DNA from: Microcoleus sp. FACHB-DQ6
GTDB taxonomy: Bacteria; Cyanobacteriota; Cyanobacteriia; Cyanobacteriales; Microcoleaceae
Reading direction: 5' to 3'
DNA length: 64,000 nt
Assembly (NCBI GenBank): GCA_014695175.1
Contig: JACJNV010000121.1
Coordinates: 1-64,000, forward strand
Position numbers and translations under genes: made by a program. Below the pieces are notes generated by a model that did no database searches, had not been told where the DNA came from, and worked only from the letters and a program-made list of their open reading frames with translations. This document shows positions 5,176 through 14,155 of this stretch, piece after piece (the first letter of the stretch is position 1; every line of letters starts with the position of its first letter).

Positions 5176-5516
5176 CTGTCTTGTCCGCTGGAAACTCTCG
5201 TGATACCGTCAGGTTAACGGGAGAGGAAAGCGGGGCGGGAGATGCCGCTTCCTAAGGATTAAGTGGACATCGGGGAAACAGAGGTGCAGTATTTCCCCAG
5301 TGAATGTTGATGGCCCCAAAGGCTTGTCCTGCACTTCGGTAATGTTTGCCTGCCCCTTTGTTGAGGAGCACTGCCGTAACTAGCGCAATTTTTTCCTCTT
5401 CCAATCTATCGCAGCGACTCTTGTCAAGTGTGCGATCGCCTGCCTGAGTTGGCAGTTACTTTGGGAGTTAGTGTTTTAACTGAATTTGCAGTTAATGTTT
5501 GCGCTTTAGCTTGCCT
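5176..5516. other. intergenic region upstream of the PadR gene
   Basis: 341 bases, presumably with the padR-type promoter. A short run near 5450-5500 repeats the phrase 'agttagtgttt / agttaatgttt' but there is no clear operator, hairpin with T tract, or small gene. Confidence 0.4.
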
Positions 5517-5720
5517 TTAAACCGAACTCAGGCCTAACATAGCCCGCAGTGTAAAAGTTAGAAAGACAAAAGTCGCTACAATCGAACTAATCAGGGCGAT
5601 CGCAGTTGCCGGTCGATCGAGCAGGGGTTTGAGTCGCTCGAACAGGAAAAAGAAAATTCCCAGACATATCGTGATGAAAAAGCGCGGGTAGCGAGAGACG
5701 TTATTAATAAAATCTTGCAT
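5517..5720 (-). CDS. ycf33: Ycf33 family (DUF751) membrane protein
   Basis: A 67-residue protein beginning MQDFINNVSRYPRFFITI, the signature of the Ycf33/DUF751 family conserved in cyanobacteria and plastids. Two hydrophobic segments (about 14-28 and 40-60) suggest a small thylakoid or inner-membrane protein. The frame is open further upstream to a GTG at 5768, but family members start at the MQDF methionine, so I chose 5720. Function is unknown in the literature I know. Confidence 0.82.
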   Translation of the reverse strand: MQDFINNVSRYPRFFITICLGIFFFLFERLKPLLDRPATAIALISSIVATFVFLTFTLRAMLGLSSV

Positions 5721-5994
5721 GAGCTTGGTGGGGTAAAGTGTCACAGCACCATCTTTGACTGGTAACACTTGTGAGCGAGTTAGACAATTTTGGCACAGCC
5801 GAAGCTAAATCTGCCGATCGGGCGATCGGGCATTTTTGCCGCCGAGGCTGACATATATAATTCTAACGAAAACTTTTCGCCGATGGCTCCGGCACTGTCT
5901 GTTTAATCCCACGCGACCTCCGGTAAGAACTTCAGAAGTATTTCTATTGAGTTCTAGTTGTGATAAATATTATAGGGCCGTTATTTCTAGATAA

Positions 5995-6108
5995 ATGTCT
6001 GCTGCCGCACCTTCTTTCGTCTTGCCACGTCCCTTTCTGAAATGGGCAGGAGGCCAAACTAGGTTGAAGATATTAAAAACCCAGAGAATCAAACTATGCG
6101 AATTTTAG
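5995..6108 (+). pseudogene. Dam methylase N-terminal fragment
   Basis: ATG at 5995 opens a 37-codon frame ending at TAG 6106-6108. It contains RPFLKWAGGQTRL, the S-adenosylmethionine-binding motif that starts Dam-type adenine methylases, and then diverges (about base 6070) into unrelated residues. The complete methylase at 7400-8290 has RPFLKWAGGKRQLL at the same place; the two DNA copies share TGGGCAGGAGG in inverted orientation. The fragment ends inside the last codons of the converging nuclease gene. It looks like the stump of an older Dam gene cut by the arrival of the R-M pair. Confidence 0.72.
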
Positions 6109-7397
6109 TCTTTGATTTGGGACAAAATCCAAGAAATCCAGCCTTGGACAGTAGACTTACGCCTTTTTATAGTTGTATCATTAATATCGGGACGATTTTC
6201 TGAGATTATTTTACAGATTGCATCTTCTGGCGGAATGTCTCCCTCTTTAAGGGTTAATTCAAATACTAAATAGAAAACTTTTTTTTCTAAAATTTTATCA
6301 ATCAAATCTAGATATTTTAATTTAGGCCTTTTATGTAAAATAGACCTTCCTTCACTTGTCAAGCAAAAACTTACTTTTTTGGTCAGGGTATCTTGATAGT
6401 TTTCTATCAGTCCAATATACAGACCAGCATTAGTATAATAGTCAGTTTGCCTGCGATCGAATTCATAGTTTTCTGTAATATCGTCTTTGGTTAAATCTCT
6501 TTCTAATAACAAGGATAATAAATCTACTACTCTCTCAAATTTATCAGCTTGGGGAAATGGAAGATCGGGCTCTGCAATTACTTGAATATTATTGAATAGC
6601 CGATCGACATCTCTCCTTTGTATTTCTTCGGGAGCGATCGTATAATTCTTTTGTTCTCTCAGTTTCAGAGAGTTATAATCTTCATCATTACTAAATTCAT
6701 AAATGAAAAAGCTAAAAATGTCGTTAGAGTATGTCATCAATACGGGAATCACTTTTTTAGTTAGTTTTTTTGACCACAATCTGTAGGGGTAGTAAAGTTG
6801 TCTAATCAAAAAATCCTCTATGGCGTAGTTCTTAGCTTCTATCAAAACAAAATAGTTGTCACTTTCAAATCCTGCATCTATCTCACACTGAGAATTTTTA
6901 ACCTTAATTGAATAGAGTTTAGTGGCGATATGAGTTATAATATTAAAATCAAAAGACTCTGTAGACATTCTCCCAGAAACAGTATAAACTGTTTTTTCAC
7001 CGACTAAATCATCTATAAGACCGATATTAAACGCACAGTGCAATGCAGAACTCTCCGAATATAAGTTTGTGTAATCTATACTCTCTATCTCGGGTGGAAA
7101 TTCAACAGGTATTACTTCTATCTTACTATCATATCCAACTTTCAAGTGTGTAACAAATTCCCCAATAACGTATTTAGAACGAGAAATTGGCAAGATGGAT
7201 AGATGATTGTCTCGAAAGATATCTGGCAAATTAACCGAGTGATCGAACTTTGCCATCAGCCTGCTTTCTCTTTGCTTATTGATTTGAGCGGCTTCTATTT
7301 CAAAACAACCATTGCGAGCGACTTGTTCTAATATTTTATGCGTTTCAAATAGTGTTTCCCAAGCTTTATCGTTTGCTGTTTTCTTGCTTTTACTCAT
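6105..7397 (-). CDS. type II restriction endonuclease, PD-(D/E)XK type
   Basis: A 430-residue protein. Around residues 168-195 it has Q-C-E-I-D-A-G-F-E, then V-L-I-E-A-K-N, the E/D...(E)xK catalytic core of many type II restriction enzymes. The C-terminus (about 355-430) looks like a winged-helix or helical specificity domain with T-I-K-R-R-K-S-T-V-Q-G-W. It starts two bases after the stop of the adenine methylase, so both are made from one transcript. It probably cuts the same site that the methylase protects, likely GATC or a related sequence (inference). The pair is visibly richer in A/T than its neighbours and has no full HIP1 octamer, suggesting transfer. Confidence 0.8.
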   Translation of the reverse strand: MSKSKKTANDKAWETLFETHKILEQVARNGCFEIEAAQINKQRESRLMAKFDHSVNLPDIFRDNHLSILPISRSKYVIGEFVTHLKVGYDSKIEVIPVEFPPEIESIDYTNLYSESSALHCAFNIGLIDDLVGEKTVYTVSGRMSTESFDFNIITHIATKLYSIKVKNSQCEIDAGFESDNYFVLIEAKNYAIEDFLIRQLYYPYRLWSKKLTKKVIPVLMTYSNDIFSFFIYEFSNDEDYNSLKLREQKNYTIAPEEIQRRDVDRLFNNIQVIAEPDLPFPQADKFERVVDLLSLLLERDLTKDDITENYEFDRRQTDYYTNAGLYIGLIENYQDTLTKKVSFCLTSEGRSILHKRPKLKYLDLIDKILEKKVFYLVFELTLKEGDIPPEDAICKIISENRPDINDTTIKRRKSTVQGWISWILSQIKD

Positions 7398-7399
7398 AT

Positions 7400-8290
7400 T
7401 TATTGAGCCGGAATTTGATAATTTAAAACTAATACTTCATCCACCCTACCTCTTTTCAAGGCATTTGAGTTTATACTTCTTGTTGCCCTAACTTTTATGA
7501 TTGTATCCTGATAATCCTTGTACAAATCCATAATAAAATCTGTACAAGAATTACTCAGCATCACCTTGCAACCTCTTTCAGTTAGATAGTCAAAAAGTTT
7601 TTTTAGTCGTTCTTGTTCGTCTCTATTAAAGCCATTCACATCATAACCAGTAAAAGAAGCTGTTTCCGAAACAGGATCGTAAGGAGGATCGAAATAAACA
7701 AAATCTCCTTTTTTGGCATCTAGAACAGCTTTGGCAAAATCCTGATTTAAGAGTGTAATATCATTGCTATTTAAGTATTTGTTCACAGCTCTTAAAACAG
7801 CGTCATCTAAAAAATTTGGATTTTTATATCTGCCAAACGGAACATTAAACTGCCCTTGGGAATTAACTCTAAATAAACCATTATAGCAGGTTTTATTTAG
7901 ATAAATGATTCGTGCTGCTTTTTCCACTTCAGACAAAATTTCATATTTTTTCGTTGAACGATCTAAGTCTCTCATCTCATAATAAGACGTTTCGCTATTG
8001 CTATATTTATCCTTGCTTAATTCCTCCATCAGCTCATCTAAGGAGTGTTTGATCACTTGATAGCAGTTAATCAGTTCTTTATTGCTATCATTGATAACAG
8101 CTTTTGGGGGTTGTAACTCAAACAAGAGTGCGCCTCCACCTATGAAAGGTTCATAGTATGTATGTTTGCTTGTCATCTTGGGAACATACTTAACAATTTC
8201 GGGCAATAACTGCCTTTTACCTCCTGCCCACTTTAAGAATGGTCTTACTAACGGATTAATTTTCCCTCTTACTAACGTATCGCTTTTCAC
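7400..8290 (-). CDS. Dam family DNA adenine-N6 methyltransferase
   Basis: A 296-residue methylase of the alpha-amino (Dam/DpnM) class. Motif X/I: F-L-K-W-A-G-G-K at about 18-25 and Y-E-P-F-I-G-G-G-A-L at about 46-56; motif IV D-P-P-Y in V-Y-F-D-P-P-Y at about 200. The C-terminus ends E-V-L-V-L-N-Y-Q as in Dam proteins. It transfers a methyl group from S-adenosylmethionine to the adenine N6, in this family usually in GATC. It is the first gene of the R-M operon and so can protect DNA before the nuclease accumulates. No separate controller gene is visible. Confidence 0.92.
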   Translation of the reverse strand: MKSDTLVRGKINPLVRPFLKWAGGKRQLLPEIVKYVPKMTSKHTYYEPFIGGGALLFELQPPKAVINDSNKELINCYQVIKHSLDELMEELSKDKYSNSETSYYEMRDLDRSTKKYEILSEVEKAARIIYLNKTCYNGLFRVNSQGQFNVPFGRYKNPNFLDDAVLRAVNKYLNSNDITLLNQDFAKAVLDAKKGDFVYFDPPYDPVSETASFTGYDVNGFNRDEQERLKKLFDYLTERGCKVMLSNSCTDFIMDLYKDYQDTIIKVRATRSINSNALKRGRVDEVLVLNYQIPAQ

Positions 8291-8453
8291 TCAGATGCCT
8301 CTAACGCTGAACAATTCATTCTAAGTTGAATTTTAGTTCAAGTCAAGAGGAAATGGTGATATTGATTCAAGGTGTAAGTCGCAGTTAAATATATCGACAA
8401 AAGCACCTTGACATAAATCTATTCATCTGATAAGTCTTGGAAAACTATCGGAT

Positions 8454-9389
8454 TTAAGCCGATCGCACTTGAATCACCCCTCGGTCGAAAACCCGTTTGT
8501 CAGTACCGATAGAACTGACAAACATCCGGTCTTCATAGACATCAAACGTCGCAAAACTCAGGCGGCTAGCAGAATACTCCGTCCACTCAGAACGCCCCAC
8601 CGGACGAGTGCCCGCGCCGGCACCGCAAATTAAATAAGTCGTACCGTTAATCGAGCGAGTGCGTTCGTAACTGTGCTCGTGTCCGTTGATATAAAGCTGC
8701 ACGCCGTACTTTTGAAACAAAGGCGCCAAACTCTTAATAAAAGATTGATTCGATCCGTAGACGCCAGAGGAATAAATCGGGTGGTGACCGAACACAACTT
8801 TCCAAGGTGCCGTGCTCTGACTCAACTCTTTTTCCAGCCAAGCAAGCTGATTTTCCCAGTCAGCATTGTGATTGGTATCTAAAGCAAAAAACTGTACCGG
8901 ATCGCGCCGAAAAGTATAGTAGCGACCTTGCATATTAAAACCCGCATATTTAACTTGCTGGTCGCCGTTACCAGTGCGGATGTCGTGATTTCCCAGACAA
9001 GCATAAAATTTTACGTTTTGCTGCAATAACGGCTGATAAGGCTTCTCGAAAACAGCATTAATTTTTTCAAATTCGCCGTTATTGTAGATATTGTCGCCGG
9101 CGAGAACAGCAACATTAAAAGGGTTTTCCCGGTGATATTGCGCCATCGCCTCAGCCACAGCATACTGACCTTCAGCGCCGGTACCGGTGTCGGCCACCGA
9201 AATAAAGCGTAAAATAGGCGGTGAGGCCGGCAATGGGACGATCGCCCTTTCTTCCTCAACGTTAGAAGGCACAGCAGCCTTGGCGTCTGTACCCCAGGCA
9301 GTCCGAAGCTGAAACATTTTCCAGATTCCGGCAACACCTAAGCTGCTGAGACTGCCTAAAATTAGAAAGTGACGGCGTTTGATGCTCAT
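8454..9389 (-). CDS. Tat-exported metallophosphoesterase
   Basis: A 311-residue phosphatase of the calcineurin-like/purple acid phosphatase group. The N-terminus SIKRRHFLILGSL is a twin-arginine-like signal followed by a hydrophobic stretch, so export is expected. Metal ligands appear in order: V-A-D-T-G (about 65), L-A-G-D-N-I-Y (about 99), L-G-N-H-D (about 133), G-H-H-P-I-Y (about 200) and N-G-H-E-H-S-Y-E-R-T (about 235). The substrate is unknown; a periplasmic phosphate-ester hydrolase is the likely role. It is transcribed divergently from the next gene. Confidence 0.88.
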   Translation of the reverse strand: MSIKRRHFLILGSLSSLGVAGIWKMFQLRTAWGTDAKAAVPSNVEEERAIVPLPASPPILRFISVADTGTGAEGQYAVAEAMAQYHRENPFNVAVLAGDNIYNNGEFEKINAVFEKPYQPLLQQNVKFYACLGNHDIRTGNGDQQVKYAGFNMQGRYYTFRRDPVQFFALDTNHNADWENQLAWLEKELSQSTAPWKVVFGHHPIYSSGVYGSNQSFIKSLAPLFQKYGVQLYINGHEHSYERTRSINGTTYLICGAGAGTRPVGRSEWTEYSASRLSFATFDVYEDRMFVSSIGTDKRVFDRGVIQVRSA

Positions 9390-13589: not shown

Positions 13590-13770
13590 AGACTTGACAC
13601 TCCCCGACCTAAAGGTGCGGGGATTCTTAATTCAGCGACTAACCTTTAAGTGTTGCGTCCTTTCGGCAATACTCCGACTTTTCAACCGTAGAATCCTACC
13701 AATTAACGAGCCTGATTCGCAGCCACCCCAGCGGGTCTGTCTCCAAAAGCGTACTAGAATACTTATCTAG
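13590..13770 (-). mobile_element. IS200/IS605-type tnpB 3'-end relic with terminal hairpin
   Basis: Read on the minus strand, the sequence gives A-F-G-D-R-P-A-G-V-A-A-N-Q-A-R and later L-N-stop-E-S-P-H-L-stop. L-N-Q-E-S-P-x-L is the common last peptide of TnpB in this family, and it is followed directly by the typical end hairpin (TCCCCG...CGGGGA, 13601-13624). Stops and shifts show that it is dead. The left part of the element is not recognisable. Confidence 0.5.
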
Positions 13771-13930
13771 AGTTTGGGTATGCCCTACCCTACTTAACAA
13801 TCCTAAAAATAGTTTGTTTTGACTGGTTTAAGACTTACTGAATTCAGCCTCTAGCTGTTTAAAGAGTTTTCGCTGCTCTGCGTCCCCCGGTTTATGCCTA
13901 AAAGTGTGTCTCATGTCCTGTTTCACGATG

Positions 13931-14155
13931 GCAAAGGAATTTGACCTTGACTTTTATACTATACCCCAGATATCGGAACTTATCGGACTTTTTGAAAAAA
14001 GTTTTAAGAAATTAAAGCTGTCCTAGAAGGACAGGGTTTTAAACCCAAATTTTTGATAAATTCTGTCGATTGGCAGACGAATCAGCCGGATTGTTTGATT
14101 AATGTAGACCTTACATATCAGGTTTTTCTGACAATTCAACTGTTAAGGAGGTAGG
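13931..14155 (+). pseudogene. possible frameshifted short gene, unknown
   Basis: ATG at 13940 gives MAKEFDLDFYTIPQISELIG and a basic helix, closing at a TAG near 14024. A +/-1 shift just before this continues as A-V-L-E-G-Q-G-F-K-P-K-F-L-I-N-S-V-D-W-Q and stops at TAG 14153-14155, next to the ribosome site of the following gene. The protein-like character on both sides suggests one gene of about 70 residues broken by a shift. The hairpin at about 14012 sits at the break. I do not recognise the product. Confidence 0.3.

Follow-up and report, generated by a model that had tools for sequence, protein, structure and literature searches.

Apparent exchange of one restriction-modification system for another of the same predicted GATC specificity between ycf33 and a phosphatase gene of Microcoleus

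On the plus strand at positions 5995-6108 of the window, the 64,000-nucleotide stretch of Microcoleus DNA that was analysed, there is a small open reading frame of 37 amino acids, MSAAAPSFVLPRPFLKWAGGQTRLKILKTQRIKLCEF, which begins like a Dam methylase and stops doing so after about 24 codons, next to a restriction-modification (R-M) operon on the opposite strand. The question raised by this locus is what the frame is a part of, and what happened to the rest of the gene. In the initial annotation it was proposed that an incoming R-M unit had replaced or cut a resident orphan Dam gene, by which the same methylation was kept and a nuclease was added. The features of the locus are listed below.

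5517-5768, minus strand: ycf33 (DUF751), the left flank of the exchange locus
5995-6066, plus strand: Dam stump, codons 1-24, remnant of a displaced resident Dam/DmtA-type methylase, 71-96% identical to full Dam of 22 relatives
6067-6108, plus strand: part of the 37-codon frame that is not Dam, lying antisense to R's 3' end and the region beyond
6068-8446, no strand: R-M cassette, in place of Dam from codon 25 onwards and of the PF20472 nuclease gene of relatives
6105-7397, minus strand: R, predicted type II restriction endonuclease with a PD-(D/E)XK core, from the PADLOC match, motif and structural model
7400-8290, minus strand: M, Dam-family (D12 class) adenine methylase with a GTG start, predicted to act on GATC, from the TIGR00571 and 2dpm matches
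8291-8446, no strand: spacer upstream of M, common to the R-M genomes of the genus
8454-9389, minus strand: metallophosphatase gene, the right flank of the exchange locus

The Dam-like start of the frame and its early end were borne out by comparison with relatives. Residues 1-24 matched the N-termini of full Dam proteins from 22 genomes of the same genus at 71-96% identity, with E values as low as 2.6e-10 in single-genome searches. In the frame's final 13 codons the sequence is no longer Dam and comes from the DNA past the 3' end of R; this tail was found only in five stump-bearing genomes and was absent from the genomes with Dam. The left junction was identical in these five genomes (G000, G012, G025, G005 and G022, with the window's genome among them). 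Several conserved positions of the stump have changed: the Lys of the GGK motif is Gln (GGQ) in the window, two substitutions were found in FLKWAGG in G025, and the stumps of G005 and G022 carry a frameshift. Judged from these sequences, the stump is a derived, decaying remnant of Dam. It is highly improbable that the 37-codon frame has been retained as a functional small gene, since the frame, although intact in G000, G012 and G025, is frameshifted in G005 and G022 and absent from G002 and G004, conserved Dam residues are altered elsewhere, and in G012 the region upstream of the stump has been replaced. The candidate of a conserved peptide was rejected on this comparison of stumps across genomes. 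G002 and G004 share the cassette and its right spacer with the other R-M genomes and lack the stump, which calls for either loss of the stump or a different history of their cassette.

A mobile-element-like sequence of 462 bp was also observed at positions 13594-14055 of the window, with a hairpin-like start (CTCCCCGACCTAAAGGTGCGGGG) and the end AGAAGGACAGGGTTTTAAACCC. It is possibly a non-autonomous element of the IS200/IS605 type. It is absent at this position from the sister genomes and has 15 full or partial matches in the window's own genome, and G012 has a 98.7% copy of it immediately before the Dam stump (locus L109, 7908-8378).

A complete Dam gene was found where the stump would place it. 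Full Dam genes (289-301 amino acids from this start codon, with a MSAAAPSFVLPRPF-type start) lie between ycf33 and the metallophosphatase gene in 22 of the 29 same-genus genomes, while the R-M pair occupies the locus instead of Dam in 7 of the 30 genomes of the genus, the window's included. The remaining genome, G015 (7% contamination), has neither pair at the locus and carries a distant Dam without synteny. The 37-codon frame was absent from every genome lacking the R-M pair, and no second intact Dam was found elsewhere in the window's own genome. That a resident Dam was cut and that the R-M pair now stands in its place thus agrees with both the full Dam of the relatives and the lack of another intact copy.

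To locate the edges of the replaced segment, the window was compared by blastn with two Dam genomes, G019 and G021. Homology ends at 6067 and is back at 8447, and the cassette was therefore taken as 6068-8446; its G+C content is 34%, against 46% in the flanks, and on the right it reaches the phosphatase gene at that gene's 3' end. The end of the nuclease gene had been placed at the break, with an overlap of four bases. The overlap is real (R and the frame share 6105-6108), but the break itself falls at 6067/6068, some 38 bases short of the stop codon of R. No direct repeats or target duplication flank the window cassette. Two inverted copies of TGGGCAGGAGG, which had been suggested as a guide for recombination, do exist, at 6043-6053 on the plus strand and 8220-8230 on the minus strand (0.02 expected). 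A guiding role was rejected because neither junction falls at the repeat, the copies are in opposite orientation, and the match is perfect only in the window's genome among the five stump genomes, being imperfect in the others. Both copies lie within the conserved KWAGG codons of two related genes, and by its sequence the repeat is merely this shared motif.

The operon itself was recognised correctly as an opposite-strand methylase-nuclease pair, in which R (6105-7397, 430 amino acids) and M (7400-8290, 296 amino acids) form a two-gene unit on the strand opposite to the frame. M is a D12 Dam-family methylase with the catalytic DPPY motif; it matched TIGR00571 at 1.3e-90, and its nearest solved structure is DpnM, the methylase of DpnII (2dpm, 4.4e-85). 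R consists of three Pfam domains of unknown function (DUF6996, DUF6997 and DUF7226) and matched the PADLOC model REase_II at 2.7e-100. Its PD-(D/E)XK motif, CEIDAGFES...LIEAK, is made up of E172-I-D174 and E187-A-K189, and the residues E172, D174, E187 and K189 were invariant in sets of 11 and of 53 sequences. M is directly upstream of R at 77 of 85 loci. An AlphaFold2 model of R built from the 53-sequence alignment reached a pLDDT of 92 (a single-sequence fold reached only 33 and was discarded). In this model the putative C-terminal winged helix, residues 278-426, resembles part of FokI (Z 9.1 over 143 residues) and the nuclease-like domain, residues 103-255, resembles region 6-150 of BpuSI (Z 7.4); these likenesses rest on moderate Z values, since Foldseek gave no PDB match below E 0.001 for the model. 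From the methylase, the linked nuclease and the motif, the window pair is predicted to be a type II R-M system.

What was displaced appears to have been a pair of genes as well. Downstream of Dam in the relatives, and convergent to it on the other strand, is a gene for a nuclease of 160 residues (PF20472, PD-(D/E)XK, 3.0e-47) in which the motif ECKWQ is invariant. This gene adjoins Dam in 22 of 22 Dam genomes of the genus (19 intact, 3 decayed) and is absent from all seven R-M genomes, so that the two pairs are mutually exclusive within the genus. The pair is also found in other families; outside the genus PF20472 is convergent to Dam at 10 of the 11 loci fetched, and most of these convergent loci adjoin ycf33, the phosphatase gene or both. 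PF20472 gave no match in PADLOC, NCBIfam or PDB, and its role in restriction is therefore deduced from fold family, catalytic motif and linkage; R and PF20472 have no profile similarity to each other. The resident Dam and PF20472 are in form an R-M system, in which PF20472 would be the restriction enzyme. No mention of PDDEXK_11 was found in the literature searched, and the convergent Dam-PF20472 pair is apparently undescribed.

At three loci, L113 (G008), L114 (G017) and L031 (G007), the nuclease is broken and Dam is intact; these loci look like naturally occurring stages on the way from R-M pair to orphan methylase. L105 (G102) departs from the convergent arrangement, since a PF20472 relative and several Dam-like genes stand there in tandem on a single strand.

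The premise that the resident Dam was an orphan fails because the PF20472 nuclease or its remnant stands beside Dam in all 22 Dam genomes; the nuclease was exchanged, not added, as Dam already had a partner. It is still conceivable that the particular recipient had a solitary Dam to which the incoming unit brought a nuclease, since Dam often occurs without PF20472 in the order's other genera, three genomes of the genus have a decayed nuclease, and genome G127 of another family has Dam without PF20472 together with the R-M operon, so that the recipient could have been Dam-only at the time of the swap. We consider this unlikely, given the nuclease or remnant in every Dam genome of the genus and a right junction of the cassette in the start region of the PF20472 gene.

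The initial annotation had also held that the methylation stayed the same, and predicted specificity indeed seems unchanged. Exactly one Dam-family methylase (E <= 1e-20) was found in each of the 30 genomes of the genus. M and the resident Dam are about 45-48% identical and form separate clades in the tree, where the displaced Dam groups with the ycf33-linked Dam genes, which we take to be of the DmtA type. The residues with which EcoDam contacts GATC (K9, Y119, N120, L122, R124, P134 and Y138) are present, by the criterion of sequence, both in M and in the Dam of G019. One Dam-family methylase per genome, these contact residues in both enzymes and the DpnM match of M suggest that the GATC mark probably persisted through the change of nuclease. 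For M, Dam, R and PF20472 alike, action on GATC is predicted from homology. With 298 GATC sites where a Markov model predicts 314, the window is not clearly depleted in them, a count which does not discriminate. An excess of HIP1 (GCGATCGC) is usual in cyanobacteria; 48 copies against 0.7 expected from base composition were counted in the window (1-64000), and every copy contains GATC.

The R-M pair is scattered over the genus. Trees with the R-M genomes as one clade were rejected for rpoB (p-AU 9e-46, 6 state changes), gyrA (p-AU 3e-7, 5 state changes) and both genes jointly (p-AU 3e-55, 6 state changes), in which the counts of changes are approximate because the rpoB and gyrA trees conflict on some placements (G022/G029 and G025). 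The number of swaps is likewise uncertain, because trees of single genes conflict as a result of recombination within the genus. Clustering of the R-M label was no greater than in shuffles on the rpoB and joint trees. The flanks are not linked to the cassette type: in the window's clade no fixed differences between R-M and Dam genomes were found in 600 bp on each side, with 36 and 30 polymorphisms shared between the two types. The window flanks are nearest to the Dam genome G019 on both sides (97.3 and 97.2%), compared with 92.7-95.1% to other R-M genomes when the replaced left side of G012 is set apart. Since the junction is common, the distribution scattered and the flanks unlinked, the cassette has presumably spread by recombination in its flanks. 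These sequence patterns indicate that the cassettes, which are unrelated and alternate between the same flanking genes ycf33 and phosphatase, behave as alleles exchanged by homologous recombination.

The tree of M within the genus roughly tracks species groups (G000, G012 and G025; G005 and G022; G002 and G004), as would be expected if the R-M pair had been gained once in ancient times, inherited only vertically and lost several times in favour of Dam. This history is quite improbable, because a return to Dam and nuclease at the same base pairs would need recombination with a Dam genome anyway, the flanks show no differentiation between R-M and Dam, and G000 and G019 share flank haplotypes.

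The association of this R-M pair with the locus extends beyond the genus. Homologs of M and R adjoin ycf33 in Trichodesmium, Okeania, Symploca, Nodularia and Richelia, and adjoin the phosphatase gene in a Phormidium and in an uncultured Oscillatoriales genome. In G127 (locus L196, 1231-6036) the order is ycf33, complete Dam, R, M and phosphatase, a direct duplication (about 65 bp, diverged) flanks the R-M insertion, and the sister genomes G055 and G144 represent the empty site. This coexistence of Dam and the R-M pair is a plausible intermediate. It shows the arrangement required by a path of two steps, in which the R-M pair was inserted by the phosphatase gene beside a complete Dam, and the redundant Dam was then deleted down to codon 24; the empty site and the duplication also favour such a path. 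Opposed to it are the lack of any genome in the genus with both genes and of a direct duplication around the window cassette, and a substitution in one step explains the genus equally well. The two-step path is somewhat less likely than not, and it is compatible with the explanation preferred here, from which it differs in path only.

Other arrangements were noted among these loci. R adjoins ycf33 with no M directly upstream at L212, L214, L215, L216 and L217 (Okeania) and at L210 (Trichodesmium); at L210 and L207 M lies at a distance of 1-1.3 kb, which looks like the outcome of an insertion into the operon. A search for further Dam stumps between R and ycf33, at loci outside the stump-bearing genomes, gave only one weak candidate, at L219 (Richelia sinica FACHB-800), where between the end of R at 5308 and the start of ycf33 at 5771 a frame MVSQIPKQTCPRPF...RELVKQY resembles an independently decayed Dam start beside the R-M pair; 1 of 1000 shuffles was as good, before counting the loci tried.

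The explanation we prefer, with a probability of roughly 0.8, is that at a cassette locus an R-M system gave way to another one while GATC methylation was maintained. The interval between ycf33 and the metallophosphatase gene would be a cassette locus for GATC-type methylation, with the DmtA-type Dam and the convergent PF20472 PD-(D/E)XK nuclease on the other strand as the resident state of the genus. Some ancestor would have received an unrelated R-M operon, made up of a DpnM-like M and a DUF6997-type R, in place of the stretch that runs from Dam codon 25 through the start of the PF20472 nuclease gene, and the stump of 24 codons would have been left. The new M would maintain GATC methylation and so protect the cell both from leftover old nuclease and from the new R; because GATC stays methylated, one system could replace the other without killing the cell. 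This reading presupposes that both methylases act on GATC and that both nucleases cleave. The cassette would then have passed among Microcoleus lineages, probably after DNA uptake, by homologous recombination in the conserved flanks.

A broader proposal is more tentative, and we hold it at slightly less than even odds: that in cyanobacteria Dam and PF20472 form an R-M system of convergent genes which is ancient and as yet undescribed, and that the ycf33-phosphatase interval is a long-lived allelic GATC locus at which the essential mark is constant and the nuclease turns over. If this is true, the 'orphan' DmtA of cyanobacteria would often be the surviving half of a Dam-PF20472 system. In theory, R-M systems resist replacement by killing the cells that lose them, except when they are replaced by systems protecting the same sequence. 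For this theory the locus offers a natural series, with the resident pair, the decayed nuclease, both methylases together (G127) and the replaced state with a stump. The locus also suggests a tie to restriction for the GATC methylase that nearly all cyanobacteria possess, which would then not be purely a housekeeping orphan, and it points to PF20472 as an uncharacterised nuclease family.

Several known systems can be compared with this locus. R-M genes have been described as inserting with a long target duplication (Nobusato et al. 2000, via PMC3874152 and PMC3031569). The insertion in G127, which adjoins the same phosphatase gene and has a duplication of about 65 bp, resembles this mode, unlike the window cassette, which is a substitution without duplication. 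It is established that Dcm spares cells losing EcoRII, as a methylase of the same specificity relieves the addiction to an R-M system (PMC3874152). The cyanobacterial locus is similar in having two enzymes of one predicted specificity, so that loss of one system need not kill, and differs in being a natural exchange between two linked pairs and not a laboratory test. From these facts we infer a swap without killing. According to Elhai 2015 (PMC4390886), DmtA methylates GATC and is essential in Anabaena PCC 7120, its phylogeny is incongruent with that of the strains, horizontal transfer has occurred, and predicted GATC restriction genes are found on two branches of the methylase tree. The displaced Dam, assigned here to the DmtA type, fits that account in the incongruent phylogeny and the predicted GATC restriction genes, whereas the convergent PF20472 nuclease, the shared locus and the stump are not described in the part of that report which was consulted (PMC4390886).

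The restriction cassettes of the pneumococcus occupy one locus and are swapped through flanking homology. They comprise DpnI, DpnII and DpnIII, alternative GATC restriction cassettes carried by different strains of Streptococcus pneumoniae (PMC12707154, PMC3573125). The cyanobacterial locus likewise harbours alternative systems of predicted GATC type, and the methylase of DpnII is the closest solved structure to the M of the window. Unlike the Dpn cassettes, each of the two cyanobacterial alternatives has the appearance of a conventional R-M system, with one methylation type for both, and no methyl-dependent (DpnI) alternative was seen at this locus; a gene stump lies at one edge, and the locus is cyanobacterial, with ycf33 and the phosphatase gene as its neighbours. 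Of the known cases the pneumococcal DpnI/DpnII/DpnIII locus comes nearest, here in a cyanobacterial form that has kept a molecular scar.
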